A stretch of DNA of 64,000 bases from Acidobacteriota bacterium (GTDB taxonomy: Bacteria; Acidobacteriota; Thermoanaerobaculia; UBA5066), in assembly GCA_029781975.1 (NCBI GenBank), contig JAKOVQ010000025.1, positions 139,001 to 203,000 of the forward strand, in the 5' to 3' direction. The position numbers were made by a program, and so were the translations under genes. Shown here one piece after another: positions 47,008-58,123 of this stretch (its first letter is position 1; the number at the start of each line of letters is the position of its first letter). Below the pieces are notes generated by a model. The model ran no database searches. It had not been told where the DNA came from and saw nothing but the letters and a program-made list of their open reading frames with translations.

Positions 47008-47360
47008 GCCTCCGCGACCTCCTCGCCGCCGCGCTCCTCCTCGCCGGGGTCCTGACGGCCCTCCTCGCCGCGATCGGCCTCCTCCGGATGCCGGACGTCT
47101 ACACCCGGATGTCGGCGTCGTCGAAGGCGGTGACGCTCGCGAAGATGTGCGTCTTCCTCGCGCTCGCCCTCGAGTTCGGCGCGCTCGGCGTGACGACGCG
47201 GGCGCTCGCGGCGGTCGCCTTCGTCTTCCTGACCGCCCCCCTCGCCGCGCACGCCATCGGCCGCGCCGCCGTCGCCCTCGGGGTCCCGTTCGCCCCCGGG
47301 ACGATGCCGAACGAGATGCCGCCCCGGGAGCCCGCCTCGGCGGAGGACGCCGACCCGTGA
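47004..47360 (+). CDS. mrpG: Mrp antiporter subunit G
   Basis: The 118-residue, three-helix protein has the MrpG/PhaG signature GLLRMPDVYTRMSASSKAVT and FVFLTAPLAAHAIGRAA. GTG 47004 overlaps mrpF by 4 bp and closes the complete mrpABCDEFG set. Confidence 0.94.
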   Translation: MSLRDLLAAALLLAGVLTALLAAIGLLRMPDVYTRMSASSKAVTLAKMCVFLALALEFGALGVTTRALAAVAFVFLTAPLAAHAIGRAAVALGVPFAPGTMPNEMPPREPASAEDADP

Positions 47361-47404
47361 GCGCGGGCTCCCTCGACCGGCCGGGTGCCACAATCCGGTC
47401 TCCG

Positions 47405-48907
47405 ATGAAGCGCCCCCTCCTCCGCCCCTTCCCGGGGCGGCTCTCCGCCCTCGTCGCCCCGCTCCTCCTCGCCCCGGCGGTGCTGGCCGCCGAGGGCCTC
47501 CCGGCGGACGGAGAGCCGCTCCCGATCCCGCTCGAGGCCTACGACGGCGAGGCGGGGATGACCCTCTGGCAGGTCCTCGTCCACCGCGTGCACGAGGACC
47601 CGGTCAACCTCGTGGCGACCGCCGTCTTCCTCCTCGCGATCGTCCACACCTTCGCCGCGGCGCGGATCACGGCGGCGGCGCACCGCCTCCAGCACCGGAT
47701 CGAGAAGGAGACCGGCCGGCCGGGGCACAGCTTCGGCGTCGAGATGCTCCACTTCCTGGGGGAGGTGGAGGCGGTCTTCGGCATCTGGGCGATCCCGCTC
47801 CTCCTGGCGGCCGCCGCGATGAAGGGCTGGCGTCCCGTGGAGGACTACGTCGCGCACGTCCACTTCACCGAGCCGATGTTCGTCGTCGTCATCATGGCGA
47901 TCGCCTCGACGCGGCCGGTGCTCGCGTTCGCGGAGCGGTGCCTGGGCGCGGTCGCCTCCCTCGGCGGCGGGACGCCCCTCGCCTGGTGGGCCGCGATCCT
48001 GACGATCGGCCCGCTCCTCGGCTCGTTCATCACGGAGCCGGCGGCGATGACGATCTGCGCGCTCCTCCTCGCCCGGCACCTCTTCGAGCTCGACCCCTCG
48101 CCGCGCCTGAGGTACGGGACGCTCGGCCTCCTCTTCGTGAACGTCTCCGTCGGCGGGACGCTGACCCACTTCGCCGCGCCCCCCGTCCTGATGGTCGCCA
48201 CCAAGTACGGCTGGGGCCTCACGTTCATGCTGCGGAGCTTCGGCTGGAAGGCGGCGATCGCGATCCTCGTCGCGACGGCGGCCTACGCCGCCTTCTTCCG
48301 GAAGGAGTTCTCCGTCCTCGCGGGGCGGAGGCAGGCGCGCCTCGCGGACCCCGCCGAGCGCCCCTCGGAGCGCTCGGTCCCGGGCTGGATCGTCGTCGCG
48401 CACCTCCTCTTCCTCGGCTGGACGGTCTTCACGGCGCACACGCCGGCGCTCTTCGTCGCCGGGTTCCTCTACTTCCTCGCCTTCACGCAGGCGACGGCGC
48501 CGCACCAGAACCCGGTGAACCTGAGGCCCCCGCTCCTCGTCGGCTTCTTCCTCGCGGGCCTCGTCCTCCACGGGACTCTCCAGCAGTGGTGGATCGCGCC
48601 CGTCCTCGCCCGCCTCGAGGAGCTTCCGCTCTTCCTCGGCGCGACGGTCCTGACGGCGTTCAACGACAACGCCGCCATCACCTACCTCGCCTCGCTCGTC
48701 CCCGGGTTCACGCCCGAGCTGAAGTACGCCGTCGTCGCGGGCGCGGTGGCGGGGGGCGGGCTGACCGTCATCGCGAATGCCCCGAACCCCGCGGGGCAGT
48801 CGCTCCTCTCCCGCTACTTCCCGGACGGCGTCGTGCCGGCGCGCCTGTTCCTCGGGGCGCTCCTGCCGACGGTGCTCGTCGCCCTGGCCTTCCTCCTCCT
48901 CCCCTGA
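47405..48907 (+). CDS. Putative Na+/H+ antiporter (DUF1504 family)
   Basis: The 500-residue protein has a signal-like first segment and about 12 membrane helices. Conserved-looking stretches are LTIGPLLGSFITEPAAMTIC, GGTLTHFAAPPVLMVA, TVLTAFNDNAAITYLASLVP and VIANAPNPAG, typical of the putative Na+/H+ antiporter family related to arsenite-permease/NhaD folds. It lies 44 bp after mrpG in the same direction, which adds a second sodium exporter to the island. Its stop TGA abuts the stop of the convergent GT81-like gene with no gap. Confidence 0.82.
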   Translation: MKRPLLRPFPGRLSALVAPLLLAPAVLAAEGLPADGEPLPIPLEAYDGEAGMTLWQVLVHRVHEDPVNLVATAVFLLAIVHTFAAARITAAAHRLQHRIEKETGRPGHSFGVEMLHFLGEVEAVFGIWAIPLLLAAAAMKGWRPVEDYVAHVHFTEPMFVVVIMAIASTRPVLAFAERCLGAVASLGGGTPLAWWAAILTIGPLLGSFITEPAAMTICALLLARHLFELDPSPRLRYGTLGLLFVNVSVGGTLTHFAAPPVLMVATKYGWGLTFMLRSFGWKAAIAILVATAAYAAFFRKEFSVLAGRRQARLADPAERPSERSVPGWIVVAHLLFLGWTVFTAHTPALFVAGFLYFLAFTQATAPHQNPVNLRPPLLVGFFLAGLVLHGTLQQWWIAPVLARLEELPLFLGATVLTAFNDNAAITYLASLVPGFTPELKYAVVAGAVAGGGLTVIANAPNPAGQSLLSRYFPDGVVPARLFLGALLPTVLVALAFLLLP

Positions 48908-50128
48908 TCAGCCGTCGAGGATCCCTCCCTCCGTCTGGACCGCCTCGAGGAGGAGGTCGCCGGCGTCGGGCACGGCTGAGAGGACGCGGGCCCAGTTCGG
49001 GATGAGCGGCGCCCCGAAGGGGTCCTGGAGGAACTGCTCGACGCCCGAGCGGAGCGCCACGGCGAAGGTGGCGACGGCCATCTCCTCCTCGTGCCGGGGG
49101 AACGTCAGGCCGTTGATCTTGGCGACGGCGTAGTAGGCGCCGACGGCGTCCTCGGCGCGGCGCTGGTAGGACGCCAGGAGCGACTTGAGCCCCCCCTCGG
49201 AGAGGACGACGTCGGCGGCGGCGAGCGTCCGGAGGAGGTGCTTGGCGATGTCGGAGGCCATCCGGTGGAGCCCCTGGGCCGGGTCGTCGGGAGAGAGCGC
49301 CTGGTGCTTGTGGTCGTAGCGGTCGGCGATGTCGCTCTGGCAGATGCGGCGGGGCGAGCGGTGGCGGAAGACCTCGGAGAGGACGCCGACCTCGAGGCCC
49401 CAGTCGGCCGGGACGCGCAGGTGAAGGGAGAGCTCGCGGGCGAGCGCGAACTCCCCGGCGAGCGGGTAACGGAAGGACGACAGGAACTCGAGGTAGGGGT
49501 GCGTCCCGAGGAGGGCGCGGAGCGACTGGAGGAGCGGCGCGACGAAGAGGCGGGCGACCCGCCCGTTCAGCCGGTCGGTGTAGCGGGCGTAGAAGCCCTT
49601 GCAGAAGTCGAAGTTGAGGATCGGGTCGGTGACCGGGTAGAGGAGGCGCGCGAGCATCGCCCGGTCGTAGTCGAGGACGTCGCCGTCGTGGAGGGCGATG
49701 TACTCGATGTTCCCCTGGGCGAGGAGGTAGCCGAACGCGATCCAGCAGGCACGCCCCTTGCCGCGCTCGCCCAGGTGGAGGTCGGCCGCCTCGAGCCTGG
49801 CGAGGAGGTTGACGACGCCCGGGCCGTCGTTCCAGAGCACGACGGTTCGCCGCTTGAGCCGCTTGAAGTAGCCGAGCGCGAAGCGGTAGCCCTCCTCGTC
49901 CGCCCGGTCGAGGGAGATCAGGACGGTGTCCAGGTAGGGGACCTGGGAGATCTCGTCGCAGATCCGCAGGAGCGCCGGGCGCTCGAGCTCGCTGATGAGG
50001 CACGGGATCAGGAGCGCGGCCTTGCTCCGCCGCGTCGCCCGGGTGATCGACTCCTCGAGCTCGACGAGCGGCCGCTCCCCCAGCCGCTGGAGCGTGGTGA
50101 TGGCGCCGGTCTGGTGGAAGTCGCTCAT
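48908..50128 (-). CDS. GT81-like glucosyl-3-phosphoglycerate synthase
   Basis: The 406-residue glycosyltransferase opens with FHQTGAITTLQRLG and a GT-A core ALLIPCLISELERPALLRIC, as in GpgS-type synthases. It has the DxD site ALHDGDVLDYD and a later WGLEVGVLSEVFRH block. GpgS transfers glucose from a nucleotide sugar to 3-phosphoglycerate, the first step to glucosylglycerate. A matching phosphatase lies at 38856-39629. ATG 50128 is preceded by GGAGGTGG. The donor sugar (glucose or mannose) is not settled by sequence. Confidence 0.8.
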   Translation of the reverse strand: MSDFHQTGAITTLQRLGERPLVELEESITRATRRSKAALLIPCLISELERPALLRICDEISQVPYLDTVLISLDRADEEGYRFALGYFKRLKRRTVVLWNDGPGVVNLLARLEAADLHLGERGKGRACWIAFGYLLAQGNIEYIALHDGDVLDYDRAMLARLLYPVTDPILNFDFCKGFYARYTDRLNGRVARLFVAPLLQSLRALLGTHPYLEFLSSFRYPLAGEFALARELSLHLRVPADWGLEVGVLSEVFRHRSPRRICQSDIADRYDHKHQALSPDDPAQGLHRMASDIAKHLLRTLAAADVVLSEGGLKSLLASYQRRAEDAVGAYYAVAKINGLTFPRHEEEMAVATFAVALRSGVEQFLQDPFGAPLIPNWARVLSAVPDAGDLLLEAVQTEGGILDG

Positions 50129-50181: not shown

Positions 50182-50598
50182 TCAGGCGGGCGAGGCGCAG
50201 GCCGCGACGACGCGCCCGAGCGCCGCGGCGACCTGGGCGCCGACCTCGGCGAGCTCGGGCTTGCCGACGAGGGCCATCACGCTCCGCGGGTCCATCGCCC
50301 GGACGACGGTCCGGCCGTCCTCCACGGAGACGGTCACGTTGCACGGCAGGAGGACGCCGACGTCGGGGGCGGCCGAGAGCGACCGGTGGGCCGACGGCGG
50401 GTGGCAGGCCCCGAGGATGAGGTAGGGCGGTCCGTCGACGTCGAGCTTCTTCTTGAGCGTCGCCGAGACGTCGATCTCGGTGAGGACCCCGAAGCCCTCC
50501 TTCGCGAGGGCCTCCCGGGCGCGGGCGACCGCCTCCGCGAAGGGGAGCGGCGAGACCGTCTGGATGGCGACGGCGGAGGGGGCGAGGGGGGTGCTCAT
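50182..50598 (-). CDS. DUF302 family protein
   Basis: The 138-residue protein has the DUF302 pattern: FAEAVARAREALAKEGFGVL, then TEIDVSATLKKKLDVDGPPY, ILGACHPPSAHRSL and VGVLLPCNVTVSV. The two Cys could bind metal or act in redox. Its role is unknown, but DUF302 genes often sit with metal or redox regulators as here. ATG 50598 is followed by a normal-length product. A hairpin 85 bp upstream separates it from the FmdB-type gene. Confidence 0.85.
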   Translation of the reverse strand: MSTPLAPSAVAIQTVSPLPFAEAVARAREALAKEGFGVLTEIDVSATLKKKLDVDGPPYLILGACHPPSAHRSLSAAPDVGVLLPCNVTVSVEDGRTVVRAMDPRSVMALVGKPELAEVGAQVAAALGRVVAACASPA

Positions 50599-50710: not shown

Positions 50711-50926
50711 TCACGTGAAGCCGCGCGACCCGCCGCCGCAGCTCCCCCCGCCGGACCCTCTCGAGCCCGAGCCGGAGGGGCTGGAGGTGGCGAACGCGGC
50801 CAGCTGCCGCTTCACGTCCTCCGAGCCGCAGGCGGGGCAGGCGACCCCGTCGTCGGCGTCGGAGAAGCTGCGGAACTCCTCGAAGCGGTCGTCGCACGAC
50901 GCGCAGCGGTACTCGTAGAGAGGCAT
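50711..50926 (-). CDS. FmdB-family zinc ribbon protein
   Basis: The 71-residue protein has the FmdB start MPLYEYRCASCDDRFE and the second zinc pair CPACGSEDV, so a zinc ribbon of two CxxC knuckles (Cys8/Cys11, then 30/33). A Gly/Ser tail ends in GGSCGGGSRGFT. The ATG lies 4 bp after the stop of the zinc-ribbon gene at 50931-51143. FmdB-like proteins are often called regulators, but the function is unclear. The final TGA is preceded by ACG, as in the two genes upstream. Confidence 0.85.
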   Translation of the reverse strand: MPLYEYRCASCDDRFEEFRSFSDADDGVACPACGSEDVKRQLAAFATSSPSGSGSRGSGGGSCGGGSRGFT

Positions 50927-50930
50927 CGGG

Positions 50931-51143
50931 TCAGTCTCCGCACCCGCCGGAGATCCGCATCCAGACCTCGGAGGGGATCCCGTCGGGGTAGATGTCGTCG
51001 GTCAGGTACATCTGCCAGCAGCTCGGGCACCGCCAGAGCAGCCGGCCTCACGTGGGGACCGGCTCGACGGTCTCCCCGCAGCGGCGGCAGGCGCCGGCGG
51101 GGCGGTCGGGCTCGGTCTCCTTCGGCGTCGGGACGTTCCTCAT
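50931..51143 (-). CDS. Zinc-ribbon protein with in-frame TGA, candidate selenoprotein
   Basis: From ATG 51143 the frame reads 31 codons to TGA (51048-51050), then stays open for 38 more codons to TGA at 50931. The downstream half looks like real protein (LLWRCPSCWQMYL, DGIPSEVWMRISGGCGD). The two halves supply matching zinc knuckles (CRRC at 19-22, CPSC at 39-42), and the gap to the FmdB ATG is only 4 bp. A hairpin with a GGU loop lies 16 nt past the TGA, as bacterial SECIS elements require. If read as selenocysteine, Sec is residue 32 (VPT-U-GRLL) of a 70-residue protein. A nonsense-mutated pseudogene is the main alternative. No selA/B/C/D gene is in the window. Confidence 0.5.
51018..51042 (-). 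promoter_or_regulatory. SECIS-like hairpin downstream of the in-frame TGA
   Basis: Read on the minus strand, GC-U-GCUC-U-GGC pairs with GCC-C-GAGC-U-GC around a GGU loop (51029-51031). The stem has one U-U and one U-C mismatch. The loop begins 17 nt after the TGA and carries G in its first two positions, matching the bacterial SECIS model (loop about 16-37 nt past UGA). Confidence 0.4.
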
Positions 51144-51355
51144 CGGGGCTCCATCTTACCGGGGGCGTCCGCGGCCCCGCCCGGGCGGGGCTCGGCGTCG
51201 CCGCCGGCGCTCGTTCTCTTCGGAAGGCCGCAGCTTCCCCCTCGCCCGGAGGGGCCCGGGCTCGCTCACGTGGGGACGCCGAGCCGCGGCAGGACGACCC
51301 ACTGGAGGAGGAGCCAGACGGCGAGGAAGGCGAGGGCCGAGAGGGCGTCGTTCAC
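51140..51355 (-). CDS. Small membrane protein, possibly continuing through a TGA
   Basis: The GTG start at 51355 overlaps the arsR stop by 4 bp. The first 29 codons encode one membrane helix ending WVVLPRLGVPT, then TGA (51266-51268). If this TGA is a stop, the gene is 51266-51355 and only 29 residues long. If it is read through, the frame continues for 41 codons, includes a Cys (GRGGSCGLP) and ends in a TGA that overlaps the next gene's ATG by 4 bp, the join typical of this genome. A 6-bp hairpin (CCCCUC-CGGGC-GAGGGG, 51238-51254) starts its loop 18 nt past the TGA. The extension is Gly/Pro/Ala-rich, so it could be chance. Confidence 0.35.
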
Positions 51356-51726
51356 CCGCGCGCCCCCTCGCCGACGAAGGCCCGGCCCTTCGCCAGCCCC
51401 GCCCGCCTCACGTCCAGGTCGCGCTGGATCGAGTTGCATACGGCCTCGCAGATCGTGAAGACGGTCGGGTCGACGATCCGGTAGTAGACGTTCACCCCGT
51501 CGCGCCGGCAGTCGACGAGGCCGGCGGCCTTCAGGACCGACAGGTGCTTGGAGACGTTCGCCTGGCTGCACGCGAGGTCGGCGAGGAGCTCGGTGACGCA
51601 CCGCTCGCCCGCCTGCAGGGCGTGGAGGATCCTGAGGCGCGTCGGGTCCGCCATGGCCTTGAGCCAGGCGGCGATCTCGCCGAGGAGCCGCTCGCGGGCG
51701 GGGCCGGAGACTCTCTTCACGCTCAT
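51352..51726 (-). CDS. ArsR-family metal or redox-responsive repressor
   Basis: The 124-residue winged-helix regulator has MADPTRLRILHALQAGERCV, then the recognition helix CSQANVSKHLSVLKAAGL and wing CRRDGVNVYYRI. Cysteines lie in the helix-turn-helix (GERCV, DLACSQ), before the wing (VDCRRD) and in the last helix (TICEAVCNS), enough for metal or persulfide sensing. The ATG at 51726 is embedded in an AT-rich motif that recurs before the tolC gene of the efflux operon, so it probably autoregulates and controls that operon. The downstream small genes follow with overlaps. Confidence 0.88.
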   Translation of the reverse strand: MSVKRVSGPARERLLGEIAAWLKAMADPTRLRILHALQAGERCVTELLADLACSQANVSKHLSVLKAAGLVDCRRDGVNVYYRIVDPTVFTICEAVCNSIQRDLDVRRAGLAKGRAFVGEGARG

Positions 51727-51779: not shown

Positions 51780-52064
51780 TCACACGACCTCCTCGACCCC
51801 CCACGTCACCATCCGGACCCTCTCGCCGCACTCCGAGCAGTAGGAGCGGAGCTCCTGGGCGAGCCGCGGGGCCGCGTCGTCCTCGACGAAGGTGAAGATC
51901 ACGGCCGACGTCTTCGGGAACGCGGCCGAGCCGAGGCGGGGGCCGGTCGTCCCCACGCCGGAGGCGTGCGGGAGCTCGGTGTAGCCGGCGACGCCGGAGC
52001 GGCGCAGGACGACCTCGAGCTCCTCCTTCTTGTCGTCGTCGACGATCACCATGAGGAGCTTCAC
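51780..52064 (-). CDS. PII-like signalling or transporter-associated small protein
   Basis: The 94-residue protein (VKLLMVIVDDDKKEELEVVL, GYTELPHASGVGTTGPRLG, AVIFTFVEDDAAPRL, CSECGERVRMVTWGVEEV) looks like the PII-superfamily proteins found at the end of RND efflux operons. A C-terminal CSEC pair could bind metal. The GTG start at 52064 overlaps the DUF2892-like stop by 4 bp. Its suggested role is metal or ligand sensing for the pump (inference). Confidence 0.75.
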   Translation of the reverse strand: MKLLMVIVDDDKKEELEVVLRRSGVAGYTELPHASGVGTTGPRLGSAAFPKTSAVIFTFVEDDAAPRLAQELRSYCSECGERVRMVTWGVEEVV

Positions 52065-52261
52065 GGGCAGGTCTCCCTCACCCCCGCCTTGCGGAGGATG
52101 GCCATCATCGGGCACCACTTCGTGAAGGCCGACTGGAAGAGGTTCAGCCCCACGAAGGCCGTGAAGGCGAAGAACCACGGGCTCTGGAGGAAGTACCCCA
52201 GGGCGACGGAGAGGACGACGAAGAAGCCGGCGATCGCCCGGAGCCAGTCGTTGACGGTCAT
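52061..52261 (-). CDS. DUF2892 (YgaP-like) small membrane protein
   Basis: The 66-residue protein has two membrane helices and the family pattern VNDWLRAIAGFFVVLSVALG, FVGLNLFQSAFTKWCPM with a conserved Cys. Such domains occur with rhodanese and RND genes and hold a thiol near the membrane. It starts 13 bp after the RND gene, with GGAGG before the ATG. Confidence 0.88.
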   Translation of the reverse strand: MTVNDWLRAIAGFFVVLSVALGYFLQSPWFFAFTAFVGLNLFQSAFTKWCPMMAILRKAGVRETCP

Positions 52262-52274
52262 GGAAGCCTCCTTC

Positions 52275-55200
52275 TCAGGCCTCGGCCGCCTCGGGCGGCA
52301 CGGCCTTCTCGACCCCCACGGTCGAGAGGTACATGTAGTAGAGGAGCGGGATGACGACGAGGGTCAGCGCCGTCGCGACGACGACGCCCGAGATGAGGGC
52401 CACGGCGAGGCCCTGGAAGATCGGGTCGAGGAGGATGACGAGGCCGCCGACGACGAGGGCCGCCGCGGTCAGGGCGATCGGGCGGAACCGCACGGCGCCC
52501 GCCTTGACGACGGCGTTCTCGAGCGTCTCGCCCATCTCCAGCTCGAGGTTGATGAAGTCGACGAGGAGGATCGAGTTGCGGACGATGATCCCGGCGAGCG
52601 CGATGAAGCCGATCATCGAGGTGGCGGTGAAGAAGACGCCGCCGAGGCCGTGCGCCGGGAGGATGCCGATGAGCGTGAGCGGGATCGGCGCCATGATGAT
52701 GAGCGGCGTCACGAAGGAGCGGAACCAGCCGACGACGAGGAAGTAGATCAGGACGAGCACCGCGGCGAAGGCGATCCCCATGTCGCGGAAGACCTCGTAC
52801 GTGATGTGCCACTCGCCGTCCCACTTCATCGCGTAGCGCGTCGAGTCGGTCGGCAGGTGGGTCGACATCACCTGGAGCGGCGCGCCGTCCGGGTCCTTCA
52901 GGGCCTCGATGCGCGACCCCATGTCGAGGATCCCGTAGACCGGCGCCTCGGCCACCCCCGCCATCTCGGCGAGGACGTACGTCACGGGCTGGAGGTTCTT
53001 GTGGTAGATGAAGCGCTCCCGCTTCGTCTCGTTCACGGTGACGAGCTCGCGGAGCGGGACGAGCTGACCCGCGCCGCCGTGGACCGACGTCTGCAGGAGA
53101 CCGTCGAGCGTGGAGCGCTGGGCCCTCTGGAGCCTCAGGACGATCGGGACGGGGTTGCGCGCGTCCTCGTCGCGCAGGAGCCCGGCGTCGGCCCCGTCGA
53201 GGGCCACGCGGAGGGTCCGCGTGATCGCCTCGGAGGTGATCCCGGCGCGCACCGCCTTCTCGCGGTCGACGGCGAGCTCCACCTTCGGCGACTGGTCCTC
53301 GACCAGCCAGTCGACGTCGACGATGCCCGGCGTCTCCTCGAAGACCTTCTTCACCTGGGCGGCCAGGGCGACGCGCTTGGACAGCTCGGGCCCGTAGACC
53401 TCGGCCACCATCGTGGAGAGGACGGGCGGACCGGGCGGGACCTCCGTCACCTTGACGTTCGCCCCGTGGCGCTTGCCGATGGGGTCCAGGAGCGTCCGGA
53501 CCTCCTTGGCGAAGGGGTGGCTCGCGAGCCTCCTCTCGTCCTTGGGGAGGAGGTTGACCTGGAGGTCGGCGACGAGCGGGCCCGACCGGAGGAAGTAGTG
53601 CCTCACGAGGCCGTTGAAGTTGAACGGGGCGGACGTCCCCACGTAGACCTGGACGTCGGTCACCTCGGGGAGCTTCCGCACCTCGAGCGCCATGTCCCGG
53701 GCCGCGGCCGCGGTCGCCTCCAGGGTCGTCCCCTCCGGCATGTCGAGGACGACCTGGATCTCGCTCTTGTTGTCGTACGGGAGCATCTTGACCTTGGCGA
53801 CCTTGAAGTAGACGAGGGAGCAGGCGAGGAGGAGGAGGACGACGACGCTCCCGAGGAGCGTCCAGCGCTTCGCCGCGCTCGACAGGAGCGGGGTGAAGAG
53901 CTTCTTGTAGAAGCGGTGGAGGCGGTCCTCCTGCGGCGTCTCCGCGTCGACCTCGAAGCCCTTCCCGTGGCGGGCCGCGTGCTCCTCGGCGTACTTGCGG
54001 AAGAGCTTGAAGGTGAGCCACGGGGAGACGACGAACGCGACGAAGAGCGAGAAGAGCATCGCCGCCGAGGCGTTGATCGGGATGGGACGCATGTAGGGCC
54101 CCATCAGGCCCGAGACGAAGGCGAGCGGGAGGAGCGCGCCGACGACGGTGAAGGTGGCGAGGATGGTCGGGTTCCCGACCTCGTCGACGGCGTAGACCGT
54201 GGTCAGCTTCGGGGGTCCCCAGCCCAGCTCGTAGTGCCGGTGGATGTTCTCCACGACGACGATGGCGTCGTCGACCAGGATGCCGATCGCGAAGATGAGG
54301 GCGAAGAGGGTGACCCGGTTGAGGGTGTAGCCGAAGGCGTAGGACGCCGCGAGGGTCAGGGCGAGCGTCATCGGGACGGCGACGAGGACGACGACCGCCT
54401 CGCGCCTCCCGAGGGCGAGGGCCATCAGGAGGACGACCGAGAGGGTCGCGAGCCCCATGTGGAAGATCAGCTCGTTCGACTTCTCGTCCGCGGTGTGGCC
54501 GTAGTCGCGGGTCTTGGTGACGTGGACGTTCGACGGGATGACGGGGCCCTTCATCCCGTCGACCCGGGCGTCGAGCTCGCGGACGAGCTCGACGGCGTTG
54601 GTCCCCGGCTTCTTGGCGACGGCGACCGTCACGGCCGGGGTGTCGGTCCCCTCGGGGAGGTTCTTGGCCCGGGCGCCCGCGCCGGCGAGCATCCAGACGT
54701 ACTGGGAGGGCTCGTCGGGGCCGTCGGTCACCTTCGCCACGTCGCGGAGGAAGACCGGCCTGCCGTTCCAGACGGCGACCACGGCGTTCCCGACCTCGTC
54801 GGCGCTCCGGAAGAGCGAGCCGACCTCCACCTGGGTCTCGGCGTTGTCCGACGAGAGGTTCCCCGCGGGGAGGCGCCAGTTGAGGCCCGAGAGGGCCATG
54901 TACGCCTGCAGGAGCGAGACGTGGTGGGCCGCGAGGCGGTCGCGGTCGAACGAGACCTTCACCACCCGCCGCTCGCCGCCGAGGACGGTCACCTGAGCGA
55001 CGCGGGGGTGCCGGGTCAGCTCGACCTTCAGCTCCTCGGCCACCTGCTTCAGCTGCATCGGGCTCGCCGACTCGGACCAGAGGGTGTAGGCGACGACCGG
55101 GACGTCGTCGATGCCGCGGGGGACCACGACGGGAGGCATCGCCCCGGGCGGGAGCTGGGGCTCCTGCTCCGCGAGCTTCGCCTTGACGCGGACGATCGCC

Positions 55201-55604
55201 TGGTCCGGGTCCGTGCCGACGAGGAAACGGACGATGATCATCCCGCCCGAGGGCTGGGTCGTGGAGTAGACGTACTCGACGTTGGGGATCTCGAAGATCG
55301 CCTTCTCGAGCGGGGTCGTGAGACGCCGCTCCACCTCCTGGGCCGTCGCGCCGGGCATGGCCAGGAAGACGTCGATCATCGGGACCTTGATCTGGGGCTC
55401 CTCCTCGCGGGGCGTCACCATCACGGCGAAGGCGCCGACGAGGAGGGAGAAGACGACGATGAGGGGGGTCAGCTTCGACTCGAGGAACGCCTTCGCGATC
55501 CGGCCCGAGGCCCCGATGGGGCGCCGCGTCATCTTGAGGCGGAGCGCCTCGCGCCGGGTCTCCTCGACGGAGGGGCGCGGGCTCCCGCTTTCGGGGGCGC
55601 TCAC
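52275..55604 (-). CDS. RND efflux transporter permease
   Basis: The 1109-residue inner-membrane pump of the AcrB/CusA superfamily has about 12 membrane helices. The N-terminal helix KLTPLIVVFSLLVGAFAVMV precedes the porter domain with PMIDVFLAMPGATAQEVERR and TTPLEKAI. FAIGILVDDAIVVVENIHRH is the conserved acidic proton-relay helix. The second half repeats the fold (ATSMIGFIALAGIIVRNSIL). It forms a tripartite pump with the HlyD and TolC products directly upstream. The substrate may be a metal or an organic cation; the sequence does not settle this. GTG 55604 starts 4 bp past the hlyD stop. Confidence 0.93.
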   Translation of the reverse strand: MSAPESGSPRPSVEETRREALRLKMTRRPIGASGRIAKAFLESKLTPLIVVFSLLVGAFAVMVTPREEEPQIKVPMIDVFLAMPGATAQEVERRLTTPLEKAIFEIPNVEYVYSTTQPSGGMIIVRFLVGTDPDQAIVRVKAKLAEQEPQLPPGAMPPVVVPRGIDDVPVVAYTLWSESASPMQLKQVAEELKVELTRHPRVAQVTVLGGERRVVKVSFDRDRLAAHHVSLLQAYMALSGLNWRLPAGNLSSDNAETQVEVGSLFRSADEVGNAVVAVWNGRPVFLRDVAKVTDGPDEPSQYVWMLAGAGARAKNLPEGTDTPAVTVAVAKKPGTNAVELVRELDARVDGMKGPVIPSNVHVTKTRDYGHTADEKSNELIFHMGLATLSVVLLMALALGRREAVVVLVAVPMTLALTLAASYAFGYTLNRVTLFALIFAIGILVDDAIVVVENIHRHYELGWGPPKLTTVYAVDEVGNPTILATFTVVGALLPLAFVSGLMGPYMRPIPINASAAMLFSLFVAFVVSPWLTFKLFRKYAEEHAARHGKGFEVDAETPQEDRLHRFYKKLFTPLLSSAAKRWTLLGSVVVLLLLACSLVYFKVAKVKMLPYDNKSEIQVVLDMPEGTTLEATAAAARDMALEVRKLPEVTDVQVYVGTSAPFNFNGLVRHYFLRSGPLVADLQVNLLPKDERRLASHPFAKEVRTLLDPIGKRHGANVKVTEVPPGPPVLSTMVAEVYGPELSKRVALAAQVKKVFEETPGIVDVDWLVEDQSPKVELAVDREKAVRAGITSEAITRTLRVALDGADAGLLRDEDARNPVPIVLRLQRAQRSTLDGLLQTSVHGGAGQLVPLRELVTVNETKRERFIYHKNLQPVTYVLAEMAGVAEAPVYGILDMGSRIEALKDPDGAPLQVMSTHLPTDSTRYAMKWDGEWHITYEVFRDMGIAFAAVLVLIYFLVVGWFRSFVTPLIIMAPIPLTLIGILPAHGLGGVFFTATSMIGFIALAGIIVRNSILLVDFINLELEMGETLENAVVKAGAVRFRPIALTAAALVVGGLVILLDPIFQGLAVALISGVVVATALTLVVIPLLYYMYLSTVGVEKAVPPEAAEA

Positions 55605-55608
55605 CGCG

Positions 55609-56709
55609 TCACCTCCCCTGGACCGGGGCGCCGTCGCGCGGCGCCGACGCGAGGCCCACGAGGACGGTCTCGCCCCCGGTCAGGCCCGAGAGGACCTCGA
55701 CGAGGCCGTCGCCGGCCGGGGCGCCGACCGTGACGGCCCTCGAGCGGGCCTTCCCCTCGTCGTCCTTCACGACGACGAGGTGCATCCCGCCCTGCGACAG
55801 GACGGCGCCGGCGGGGACGACGACCGCCTTGCGGGTCCCCGCGTCGACGAGGGCCCGCCCCGTGGCGCCGGTCGGGACGGCGGTCCCGACGACCTCGACC
55901 TTGACCGTGTAGGTGTGGCTCGCCGGGTCGGCGCCGGGGGACATCTCGACGACCTTCCCCTTCAGGGTCCCGAGCCGGGGGAGGGTGTCGATCGTGACGC
56001 CGATCGCCTTGCCGGAGGAGAGGCCGGCGCCGGCCATGAGGCTCTCGGGGACCGAGACGACGAGGCGGCGTCCGACGGCCGACTCGACCATCACGAGGGG
56101 GCGGCCGGGGGCCGCGAGGTCGCCCGGGTCGACCATCTTCCGGCCGACCCGCCCGTCGAAGGGGGCGACGACCCGCGAGTCCGCGGCGACGGACGAGGCC
56201 GCCTCGACCGCGCCGCTGGCCTGCTCGACGGCGCCCTTGGCCTGCTCGTACTGCATCCGCGCCATGTCGAGCTCGAGCTCGGAGGCGGAGCTGGTCTTGT
56301 TCAGGCTCTTGAACCGCTCGTAGTTCCGCTCGGCGAGCGAGAGGGCGGCCTTCGCCTGGGCGAGGGCGCCGCGGGCCTGGGCCACCTGCCCCCTGGCGGC
56401 CTGCGGGTCGATCTCCGCGAGGACCTGGCCCTTCCTCACGAGGTCCCCTTCGTTGACGGGGACCGACGTGACGGACGCCATGACCCGGCTCGACACCGCG
56501 GCCGACTTGTCGGCCATGACGGTGCCGTAGAGCTCGAGCTGCTGGGGGATCTCGCGCGCCTCGGCCTTCGCGAGGGTGGCCGCGACCGGCGGGACGGGGG
56601 CCTCGGCGCCGGCCTTCTCGTGCGATCCGCCGCAGGCGGCCAGGGTCGTCAGGGCGACCGAAAGGCCGAAGGCGGCGAGGGGGGCGGCACTCTTCCGGGG
56701 GAAACGCAT
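55609..56709 (-). CDS. HlyD/MFP-family efflux adaptor lipoprotein
   Basis: The 366-residue periplasmic adaptor has a lipoprotein signal (LSVALTTLAACGG), the barrel-sandwich block SVPVNEGDLVRKGQVLAEID (lipoyl-like), a coiled-coil hairpin (about 105-185), VVAPFDGRVGRKMVDPGDL and a C-terminal membrane-proximal domain. The ATG at 56709 has GAGGAG 7 nt upstream; ATG 56724 is possible. It is the middle gene of the tolC-hlyD-RND operon and connects pump to outer-membrane channel. Confidence 0.92.
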   Translation of the reverse strand: MRFPRKSAAPLAAFGLSVALTTLAACGGSHEKAGAEAPVPPVAATLAKAEAREIPQQLELYGTVMADKSAAVSSRVMASVTSVPVNEGDLVRKGQVLAEIDPQAARGQVAQARGALAQAKAALSLAERNYERFKSLNKTSSASELELDMARMQYEQAKGAVEQASGAVEAASSVAADSRVVAPFDGRVGRKMVDPGDLAAPGRPLVMVESAVGRRLVVSVPESLMAGAGLSSGKAIGVTIDTLPRLGTLKGKVVEMSPGADPASHTYTVKVEVVGTAVPTGATGRALVDAGTRKAVVVPAGAVLSQGGMHLVVVKDDEGKARSRAVTVGAPAGDGLVEVLSGLTGGETVLVGLASAPRDGAPVQGR

Positions 56710-56738: not shown

Positions 56739-58073
56739 TCAGGGAAGGACGCTCTCGGGGCGCCGGCCGGCGGCCTGGGCGAGCCTCAGCGCGCTCGCCT
56801 GCGCGTCGGCGCGGGCCACGAGCTCGCGCGTCTCGGCCTCGCGCCGGGCGGTGGCGGCGTCGAGGAGGTCGATCGTCTTGACGACCCCGCTCTTCCACCG
56901 CTCGTCGGTGATCCGCTCCGTCTCGCGGGCGGCTTCCAGCGCCTTGACGGCCGTCGCGTGGCGGGCCCGGGCGGTGACGGCCTCCTCGTAGGCCTGCCGG
57001 ACCTGGAGGGCGATCCCCTCCTCGAACCGGGCCACGTCCTCGCGTCCGGCGCGGGCGTCCTCGCGGGCGGCGGCGAGGGCCGCGCGGTCGGAGAGGCCGG
57101 TGCTGAAGCTGAGGGAGGCGAACGCCATCACGGTCGTCCCGCGGTTGCTCGAGGTGAAGAGCCGCTGGCCGAAGATGTCGTGCCGGGCGAGGACCCCGAT
57201 CTTCGGGAGGAAGGCCGCGCGCTTCACCTTCTCCTCGAGCACGCCGGCCGCCAGGAGGCTCCTGGCGGCGAGGAGGTCCTGCCGGCCGGCGGCGGTGGCG
57301 ATCCAGGCGTCGACCCCCTCCCCGAGCGGGGCGGGGGCGGGGAGAGGGGCGAGCTCCCAGGTCGAGGACTGGGGCTCGCCGAGCCGGAAGGCGAGGGCCG
57401 CGTTGGCGACCCGGACGTTCCCCTTCGCCGACTCCAGGAGGTCGTCCACCCGGGAGAGCTCGACCTCGGCGCGGAGGAGCTCCGACCGGACGAGCATCCC
57501 TTCCTCCGCGTACCGCCTCGCGAGGTCGACGTGGGCCTTCACGGTCTCGCGTGACTTCGTCAGGAGGGAGACGTACTCCTCGGCCTGGGCGAGCATCACG
57601 TAGGCCTCGGCCGCCTCGCGCGCGGCGGTGTCCGACGCGAAGGAGGCCGTGCTCTCGGCGGCCTTCGCGGCGTTCCTCGCCTGCCCGATCCTCCCGGAAA
57701 GCTCGCCCCCGGTGAAGAGCGGCAGGACCGCCTCGAACCGGGTGATCGAGGTGGCCTGCGTCTCGGGGTGGTTGGGGTCGCTCATGACGAAGTCGCCGAA
57801 GGTGAACTCCCCGCGGTTGAGCTTGAACGCGAAGTTCTCGGCCGGTGAGTCGGTCCTCGCGTACGTCTCCGAGACCGAGAGGACCGGCAGGCGGGAGCCC
57901 GACGCCTGCCGGGCGCGCTCTTCGGCGGCCGCCCTGCGGGCGTTCGCCGCGGCCACCTCCCGCGAGCGCTCGCGGGCCCGCGCCATCGCGTCCGCCAGCG
58001 TCAGCGGGCCCTCGGAGCGCGCCGTCCCGGCCAGGACGAGGGCCGCGAGGGCCAGGGGAACGAATCGCCTCAT
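56739..58073 (-). CDS. TolC-family outer-membrane efflux protein
   Basis: The 444-residue protein has a signal peptide (VPLALAALVLAGTARS) and two long TolC repeats (about 25-215 and 240-430). The helices start with LTLADAMARARERSREVAAA and EEKVKRAAFLPKIGVLARHD. As the first gene of the minus-strand operon it lies 51 bp downstream of the putative ArsR operator. ATG 58073 is preceded by AAGGAGGAGAC; an in-frame start at 58115 is less likely. Confidence 0.92.
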   Translation of the reverse strand: MRRFVPLALAALVLAGTARSEGPLTLADAMARARERSREVAAANARRAAAEERARQASGSRLPVLSVSETYARTDSPAENFAFKLNRGEFTFGDFVMSDPNHPETQATSITRFEAVLPLFTGGELSGRIGQARNAAKAAESTASFASDTAAREAAEAYVMLAQAEEYVSLLTKSRETVKAHVDLARRYAEEGMLVRSELLRAEVELSRVDDLLESAKGNVRVANAALAFRLGEPQSSTWELAPLPAPAPLGEGVDAWIATAAGRQDLLAARSLLAAGVLEEKVKRAAFLPKIGVLARHDIFGQRLFTSSNRGTTVMAFASLSFSTGLSDRAALAAAREDARAGREDVARFEEGIALQVRQAYEEAVTARARHATAVKALEAARETERITDERWKSGVVKTIDLLDAATARREAETRELVARADAQASALRLAQAAGRRPESVLP

Positions 58074-58123
58074 GTCTCCTCCTTGGGGCCGTCCCCGGGG
58101 GTCCGGGGAGGACATTCATGAGA

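Follow-up and report, generated by a model that had tools for sequence, protein, structure and literature searches.

Within a 64,000-nucleotide stretch of DNA from an Acidobacteriota bacterium (hereafter, the window), a short zinc-ribbon gene is interrupted by an in-frame TGA, which raises the question of whether the gene is broken or whether this codon is read as selenocysteine (Sec). The frame given in the original prediction (31 codons, TGA, 38 codons, two CxxC motifs, and a stop 4 bp before the next ATG) is correct and lies on the minus strand, which the prediction had left unstated. The gene (50931-51143) starts with the ATG at 51143-51141, meets the internal TGA at 51050-51048, and ends with a TGA stop at 50933-50931, 4 nt before the ATG of an FmdB gene at 50926. 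Its 70-residue product, MRNVPTPKETEPDRPAGACRRCGETVEPVPT-U-GRLLWRCPSCWQMYLTDDIYPDGIPSEVWMRISGGCGD, would carry Sec at position 32, and it has CxxC pairs at residues 19/22 and 39/42 and a further cysteine at position 68. A single open frame of such size in GC-rich DNA is weak evidence; this one is lifted above chance by a TGA column shared with homologues, by coding constraint in its own frame, and by synonymous-recoding tests. We put the probability that the zinc ribbon contains Sec at about 0.92 to 0.95, because the TGA is conserved, the genome holds the sel machinery, a SECIS hairpin follows the TGA, and purifying selection acts past it. The computations establish that both TGAs, the hairpins, the machinery, and the gene order are conserved; insertion of Sec at residue 32 is inferred. 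The apparently broken gene is almost certainly an intact gene for a small selenoprotein.

A search of 61 related genomes returned 13 strong homologues besides the window, each with one internal TGA. A profile search over 149 genomes of the class recovered the gene in 23, every one of which has a TGA at this column; where a few rows show a second TGA, it is an upstream or a terminal stop lying at the edge of the match. The carriers are Acidobacteriota, mainly Thermoanaerobaculia, and no homologue was found beyond the class among 396 genomes of the phylum or among the plasmid and viral sequences searched. No Cys occupies the Sec column in the 23 homologues. Nor does Trp or any other residue, whose presence there the original prediction had named as evidence against itself. 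Of the two kinds of homologue that it had proposed to look for, those with TGA plus a hairpin at the same column were recovered (23/23), and Cys forms, the classical second line of support though no strict condition for a selenoprotein, were absent from the 396 phylum genomes. A sequencing error at 51048-51050, also raised at the outset, is excluded, as the same TGA occurs in 22 other genomes from independent assemblies.

The alignment of the 23 rows is invariant at C19, C22, P28, P30, T31, U32, G33, L36, W37, R38, C39, and C42, and further at G55, P57, W61, and C68. Past the TGA, substitution is protein-like and coding constraint is seen only in the gene's own frame, where pN/pS is 0.25/0.51; the two remaining frames give 0.31/0.30 and 0.34/0.23. 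These data bear on the standard reading of the code, under which the TGA would be an ordinary stop that closes a 31-residue peptide, with the next 38 codons belonging to a decayed or separately started gene. The organism does use TGA for ordinary termination, and this very gene ends with one. However, the second half keeps its frame in 23 genomes with W37, R38, C39, C42, W61, and C68 unchanged, its substitutions are those of a protein, the PTUG around the TGA does not vary, and the hairpin past the TGA is under selection, so that we consider an ordinary stop highly improbable.

The hairpin that follows the TGA (51014-51046, minus strand) has a GGU loop at 51031-51029 and a core stem in which 51039-51032 pairs with 51028-51021. 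The published model of bacterial SECIS elements specifies a loop of 3 to 9 nt with G in the first two positions, a stem of 4 to 16 bp, a spacing of 16 to 37 nt, and an energy of -7.5 kcal/mol or less (PMC13188914). The predicted GGU-loop hairpin is real and, with 16 nt from UGA to loop, within the published limits, as are the hairpins of all 23 zinc-ribbon genes. Their loops are of 3 nt with G first (GGU in 22 genes, GUU in one) and lie 16 or 19 nt past the UGA, their stems are of at least 7 bp, and their energies are below -7.5 kcal/mol (23/23). No feature falls outside the model (PMC13188914), and the hairpin sequence is almost invariant. The window's own fold after the TGA just mildly beats dinucleotide shuffles (z of -1.84). 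When the genes were recoded synonymously so as to preserve the protein, hairpin strength gave a mean z of -2.08, against 0.03 (standard deviation, 0.95) for 295 control windows from neighboring genes; the 23 sequences share ancestry, and the hairpin tests are accordingly non-independent trials. Total fold energy scored -1.79 in the same kind of comparison (control, -0.15), whereas in these genes the stretches just ahead of the TGA and farther downstream score -0.32 and 0.13. Covariation is uninformative for this stem because most pairs never vary (five of eight are constant), and an Rfam search returned matches at chance level only, with no SECIS family among them.

The search for sel genes that the original prediction had suggested was positive throughout, since the genome contains selA, selB, a tRNA-Sec with anticodon UCA, and two selD genes. 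An in-frame TGA interrupts one selD (SACAG-U-ASKLP; L019; genome contig C15:537242-538171), which is likely to encode a Sec-containing SelD; this TGA lies near the N terminus, the region known to hold the Sec of SelD proteins. The other copy, on contig C2, is without an internal TGA. Across the class, selB is present in 132 of 149 genomes, so its co-occurrence with the zinc ribbon is uninformative, and three carriers with fragmented assemblies (G009, G142, and G145) gave no selB match at a strict threshold. A reading of the TGA as Trp or some other amino acid, through a changed code or general suppression, is also highly improbable. Such Sec-free readthrough would likewise keep the frame open, but the genome has tRNA-Sec(UCA), selA, selB, and selD, TGA terminates the zinc-ribbon gene and neighboring genes, Trp is encoded by TGG within the zinc-ribbon gene itself, and the structured element past the UGA fits SECIS.

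The original prediction had placed the gene beside an ArsR regulator. ArsR does belong to the same operon, and a further TGA-containing gene lying between the two had been missed. We are highly confident that this gene, directly upstream of the zinc ribbon (51140-51355, minus strand, GTG start at 51355), encodes a second selenoprotein. Its start overlaps the ArsR stop and its own stop overlaps the zinc-ribbon ATG. The product is a one-helix membrane peptide of 71 residues with Sec at position 30, which begins VNDALSALAFLAVWLLLQWVVLPRLGVPT-U-ASPGPSGRGGSC and displays the motif LPRLGVPT-U-...C; the TGA lies at 51266-51268 and a SECIS-like hairpin at 51238-51254. The peptide is present at 20 of the 23 zinc-ribbon loci, with TGA each time, and the three loci without it (L067, L071, and L072) had no informative extra neighbor that we could recognize. 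Related genes elsewhere in the phylum mostly read LGxxT-U-xxxxC, frequently U-M-S/R-x-x-C. We inspected 83 distinct genes, namely the 20 beside the zinc ribbon, 23 at loci L105 to L127, and 40 at loci L128 to L167, with some 19 weaker matches left out; the Sec column is TGA in all 83 and Cys in none, despite Cys at that column in the search model. At an E value of 0.01, 83 of the 396 phylum genomes have any match to the peptide, a genome count that is an upper estimate. A stretch of 12 bases, GTCCCCACGTGA (Val-Pro-Thr-Sec), occurs identically at 51266-51277 and 51048-51059 on the minus strand, once at each of the two Sec codons. In homologues, the Pro-Thr codons before both TGAs vary synonymously, and PT-Sec is thus kept at the protein level in two unrelated proteins.

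For the membrane peptide, the signal came from the hairpin test at SECIS spacing and from covariation. The recoding test gave mean z values of -1.28, -1.75, and -1.76 in the three gene sets listed above, the last two with approximate codon usage. In an alignment of 25 sequences, pairing holds in 91% of cells, compared to 29 to 58% in slid registers; both sides have changed in five of seven pairs, and 19 cells are changed on both sides versus 3.4 ± 1.6 in shuffles (0 of 500 reach this number). Total fold energy showed no signal (mean z, -0.20) because the stretch is very GC- and Gly/Pro-rich. A neighboring TGA gene with a covarying hairpin counts in favor of the Sec reading of the zinc ribbon. 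The positive residues that follow the helix suggest a cytoplasmic position for the Sec of the peptide. No NCBIfam model matches the peptide, nor does any Pfam family match the form tested, and it is apparently an undescribed selenoprotein that recurs across the phylum. We give even odds to the broader proposal that the operon encodes a matched pair of new selenoproteins, one a soluble zinc ribbon and the other a membrane peptide with a single helix (LPxLGxPT-U, then Cys). On this view, the peptide would represent a new Sec-only family in up to a fifth of the sampled Acidobacteriota genomes, overlooked as tiny and without Cys counterparts, and the two Sec residues would cooperate at the membrane surface. 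Cooperation between the two proteins is itself speculative.

Both selenoprotein genes belong to an ArsR-led operon that usually stands behind an RND efflux pump. All genes of the window's cluster are on the minus strand, in the order TolC-like outer membrane efflux protein (56739-58115), RND periplasmic adaptor subunit (55609-56700), RND efflux permease (ACR_tran; 52275-55604), YgaP-like transmembrane protein (PF11127; 52061-52261), transporter-associated P-II-like protein of the PG0541 family (51780-52073), ArsR/SmtB-type regulator (HTH_metalloreg; 51352-51726), membrane selenoprotein, zinc-ribbon selenoprotein, FmdB family zinc ribbon protein (TIGR02605, 70 bits; 50711-50926), and DUF302 protein (50182-50598). 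ArsR and FmdB are present at 23 of 23 zinc-ribbon loci and DUF302 at 19. The P-II-like and YgaP-like genes are found at 17, and the RND permease, upstream in most loci, also at 17, including two short loci that show just its end. Cysteines 93 and 97 of ArsR are invariant over the 23 loci, as are the CxxC of the P-II-like protein, five cysteines of FmdB, and two of DUF302. Beyond DUF302, the product of 48908-50128 (minus strand) is similar to glucosyl-3-phosphoglycerate synthase, with a strong but sub-cut-off score (324 bits; cut-off, 700), and a putative Na+/H+ antiporter gene adjoins it at 47147-48907 (plus strand). The distant membrane-peptide genes have mixed neighbors, many with relatives of DUF302, FmdB, ArsR, and the P-II-like and YgaP-like proteins, others unrelated. 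At two of these loci (L116, 1-1473, and L118, 1071-1496), translations inspected by eye include adjoining rhodanese-like proteins, which hints at reactive-sulfur metabolism. P-II-like genes are known beside metal exporters, as in Geobacter, where a cobalt-induced PII-NG gene clusters with CzcABC (PMC7726332), and this may offer a lead on function.

The structure model of the product (pLDDT, 82) is a zinc ribbon in which Sec32 is flanked by strands 27-30 and 35-38, and it has a C-terminal helix. Foldseek found no match to it at an E value of 0.001, the nearest being the ZifS and RPB9 ribbons at E values above 0.05, and VIA-align gave Z scores of 3.7 or less; the best matches among solved structures are ribbons of RNA polymerase subunits, ribosomal proteins, and ZifS. 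Zinc ribbons match each other generically, and the fold searches say just "zinc ribbon." In the mechanism that we propose, SelB with Sec-tRNA(UCA) would read UGA 51050-51048 as Sec, directed by the hairpin 16 nt downstream, to yield a 70-residue cytosolic selenoprotein. The two CxxC pairs of this small ribbon would probably hold one zinc; Sec32, in the turn between two ribbon strands, would be the residue that reacts, and Cys68 could plausibly serve as the resolving thiol. The membrane peptide would span the membrane once, its Sec following the helix. The most likely role would lie in stress defense, with thiol/selenol chemistry as part of a cassette that counters soft metal(loid)s or reactive sulfur, may be switched by the cysteine-bearing ArsR, and is often coupled to an RND exporter. 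This assignment to metal(loid) or reactive-sulfur defense, drawn from the neighbors only, is tentative.

Alternatively, the zinc ribbon may be a selenoprotein of regulatory function that binds nucleic acid or protein, works with ArsR and FmdB, and has in its Sec a redox switch and not a catalyst. The constant presence of ArsR and FmdB next to it (23/23) and the RNA polymerase subunit, ribosomal protein, and ZifS ribbons among its best structural matches point this way. However, those matches are of the generic kind (Foldseek E values above 0.05, VIA Z scores up to 3.7), the pump and the membrane selenoprotein next door are not regulatory, and in the proteins known to contain it Sec mostly serves catalysis. 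We regard a regulatory role as less likely than not.

A 2026 review puts the list of bacterial selenoproteins at 119 families or subfamilies (PMC13188914). The operon would extend it by a divergent selenoprotein and an apparently undescribed one, both from Acidobacteriota, which are largely uncultured. Reliance on Cys homologues is a stated limit of selenoprotein finders (PMC12013277), and the membrane family, with TGA in every homologue inspected, would be filtered out by finders of this kind. Overlapping genes for two Sec proteins beside ArsR would also make a concrete, testable system for the use of Sec in metal or sulfur stress.

Among known systems, the Tso neighborhood (NF045707 and related NCBIfam models, with the ArsR-type TsoR) likewise associates selenoprotein genes with an ArsR/SmtB regulator. 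In contrast to that system, the window's ArsR reaches 59 bits against a TsoR cut-off of 115, and neither selenoprotein of the window matches a Tso model. The small zinc ribbon DUF7479 (Pfam PF24292) scores 14.4 bits with the window protein, short of its gathering cut-off of 27. FmdB (TIGR02605) is, like the zinc ribbon, a small double-CxxC ribbon, an ordinary FmdB gene comes next at all 23 loci, and the FmdB family includes a Sec form (PMC13188914). The window protein nevertheless differs in giving no TIGR02605 match (cut-off, 31.3 bits), and the model matches 4 of the 23 members weakly (best E value, 0.013; one at 15.5 bits).

The closest resemblance is to the NCBIfam model NF041197, "dual CXXC motif small (seleno)protein," which covers OS_HP3 (motif RxU) and "hypothetical protein DW" (motif GxU) (PMC13188914 and PMC12013277). 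The original prediction was wrong in stating that no described family has this layout; NF041197 has it, though the protein scores below the family cut-off. The arrangement C-x2-C-x9-U-x6-C-x2-C is shared, with spacing identical to that of an NF041197 member from the same class (L053), and residues 19 to 46 match profile positions 1 to 28 without gaps and with coinciding Sec columns. An hhalign comparison of the zinc-ribbon family with L053 also aligns the Sec columns, at 75% probability. Unlike NF041197 members, the window protein scores 20.0 to 20.2 bits and two other members of its family score 24.7 and 25.1, against a cut-off of 40, and scores drop by about 8 bits once the Sec column is masked, to about 16 or below, the level of unrelated zinc ribbons. 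The motif PTU-G-x-LLWRC and the C-terminal Cys are not in L053, and the zinc ribbon further differs in its confinement to one class and in having no Cys forms among the 396 phylum genomes. We describe the zinc ribbon as laid out like NF041197 and, judged by these alignments, at best a putative divergent sister group, and we claim no membership because of the scores of 20 to 25 bits and their fall to the level of unrelated ribbons once Sec is masked. The L053 gene (1501-1632, minus strand, genome G051) reads CPLCGGPADLRGR-U-ASAVIVCRSC, and NF041197 is seemingly unannotated in the class. With its TGA taken as Sec/Cys, L053 scores 41.6 bits, above the cut-off of 40, so that the NF041197 type and the zinc-ribbon type coexist in the same class.
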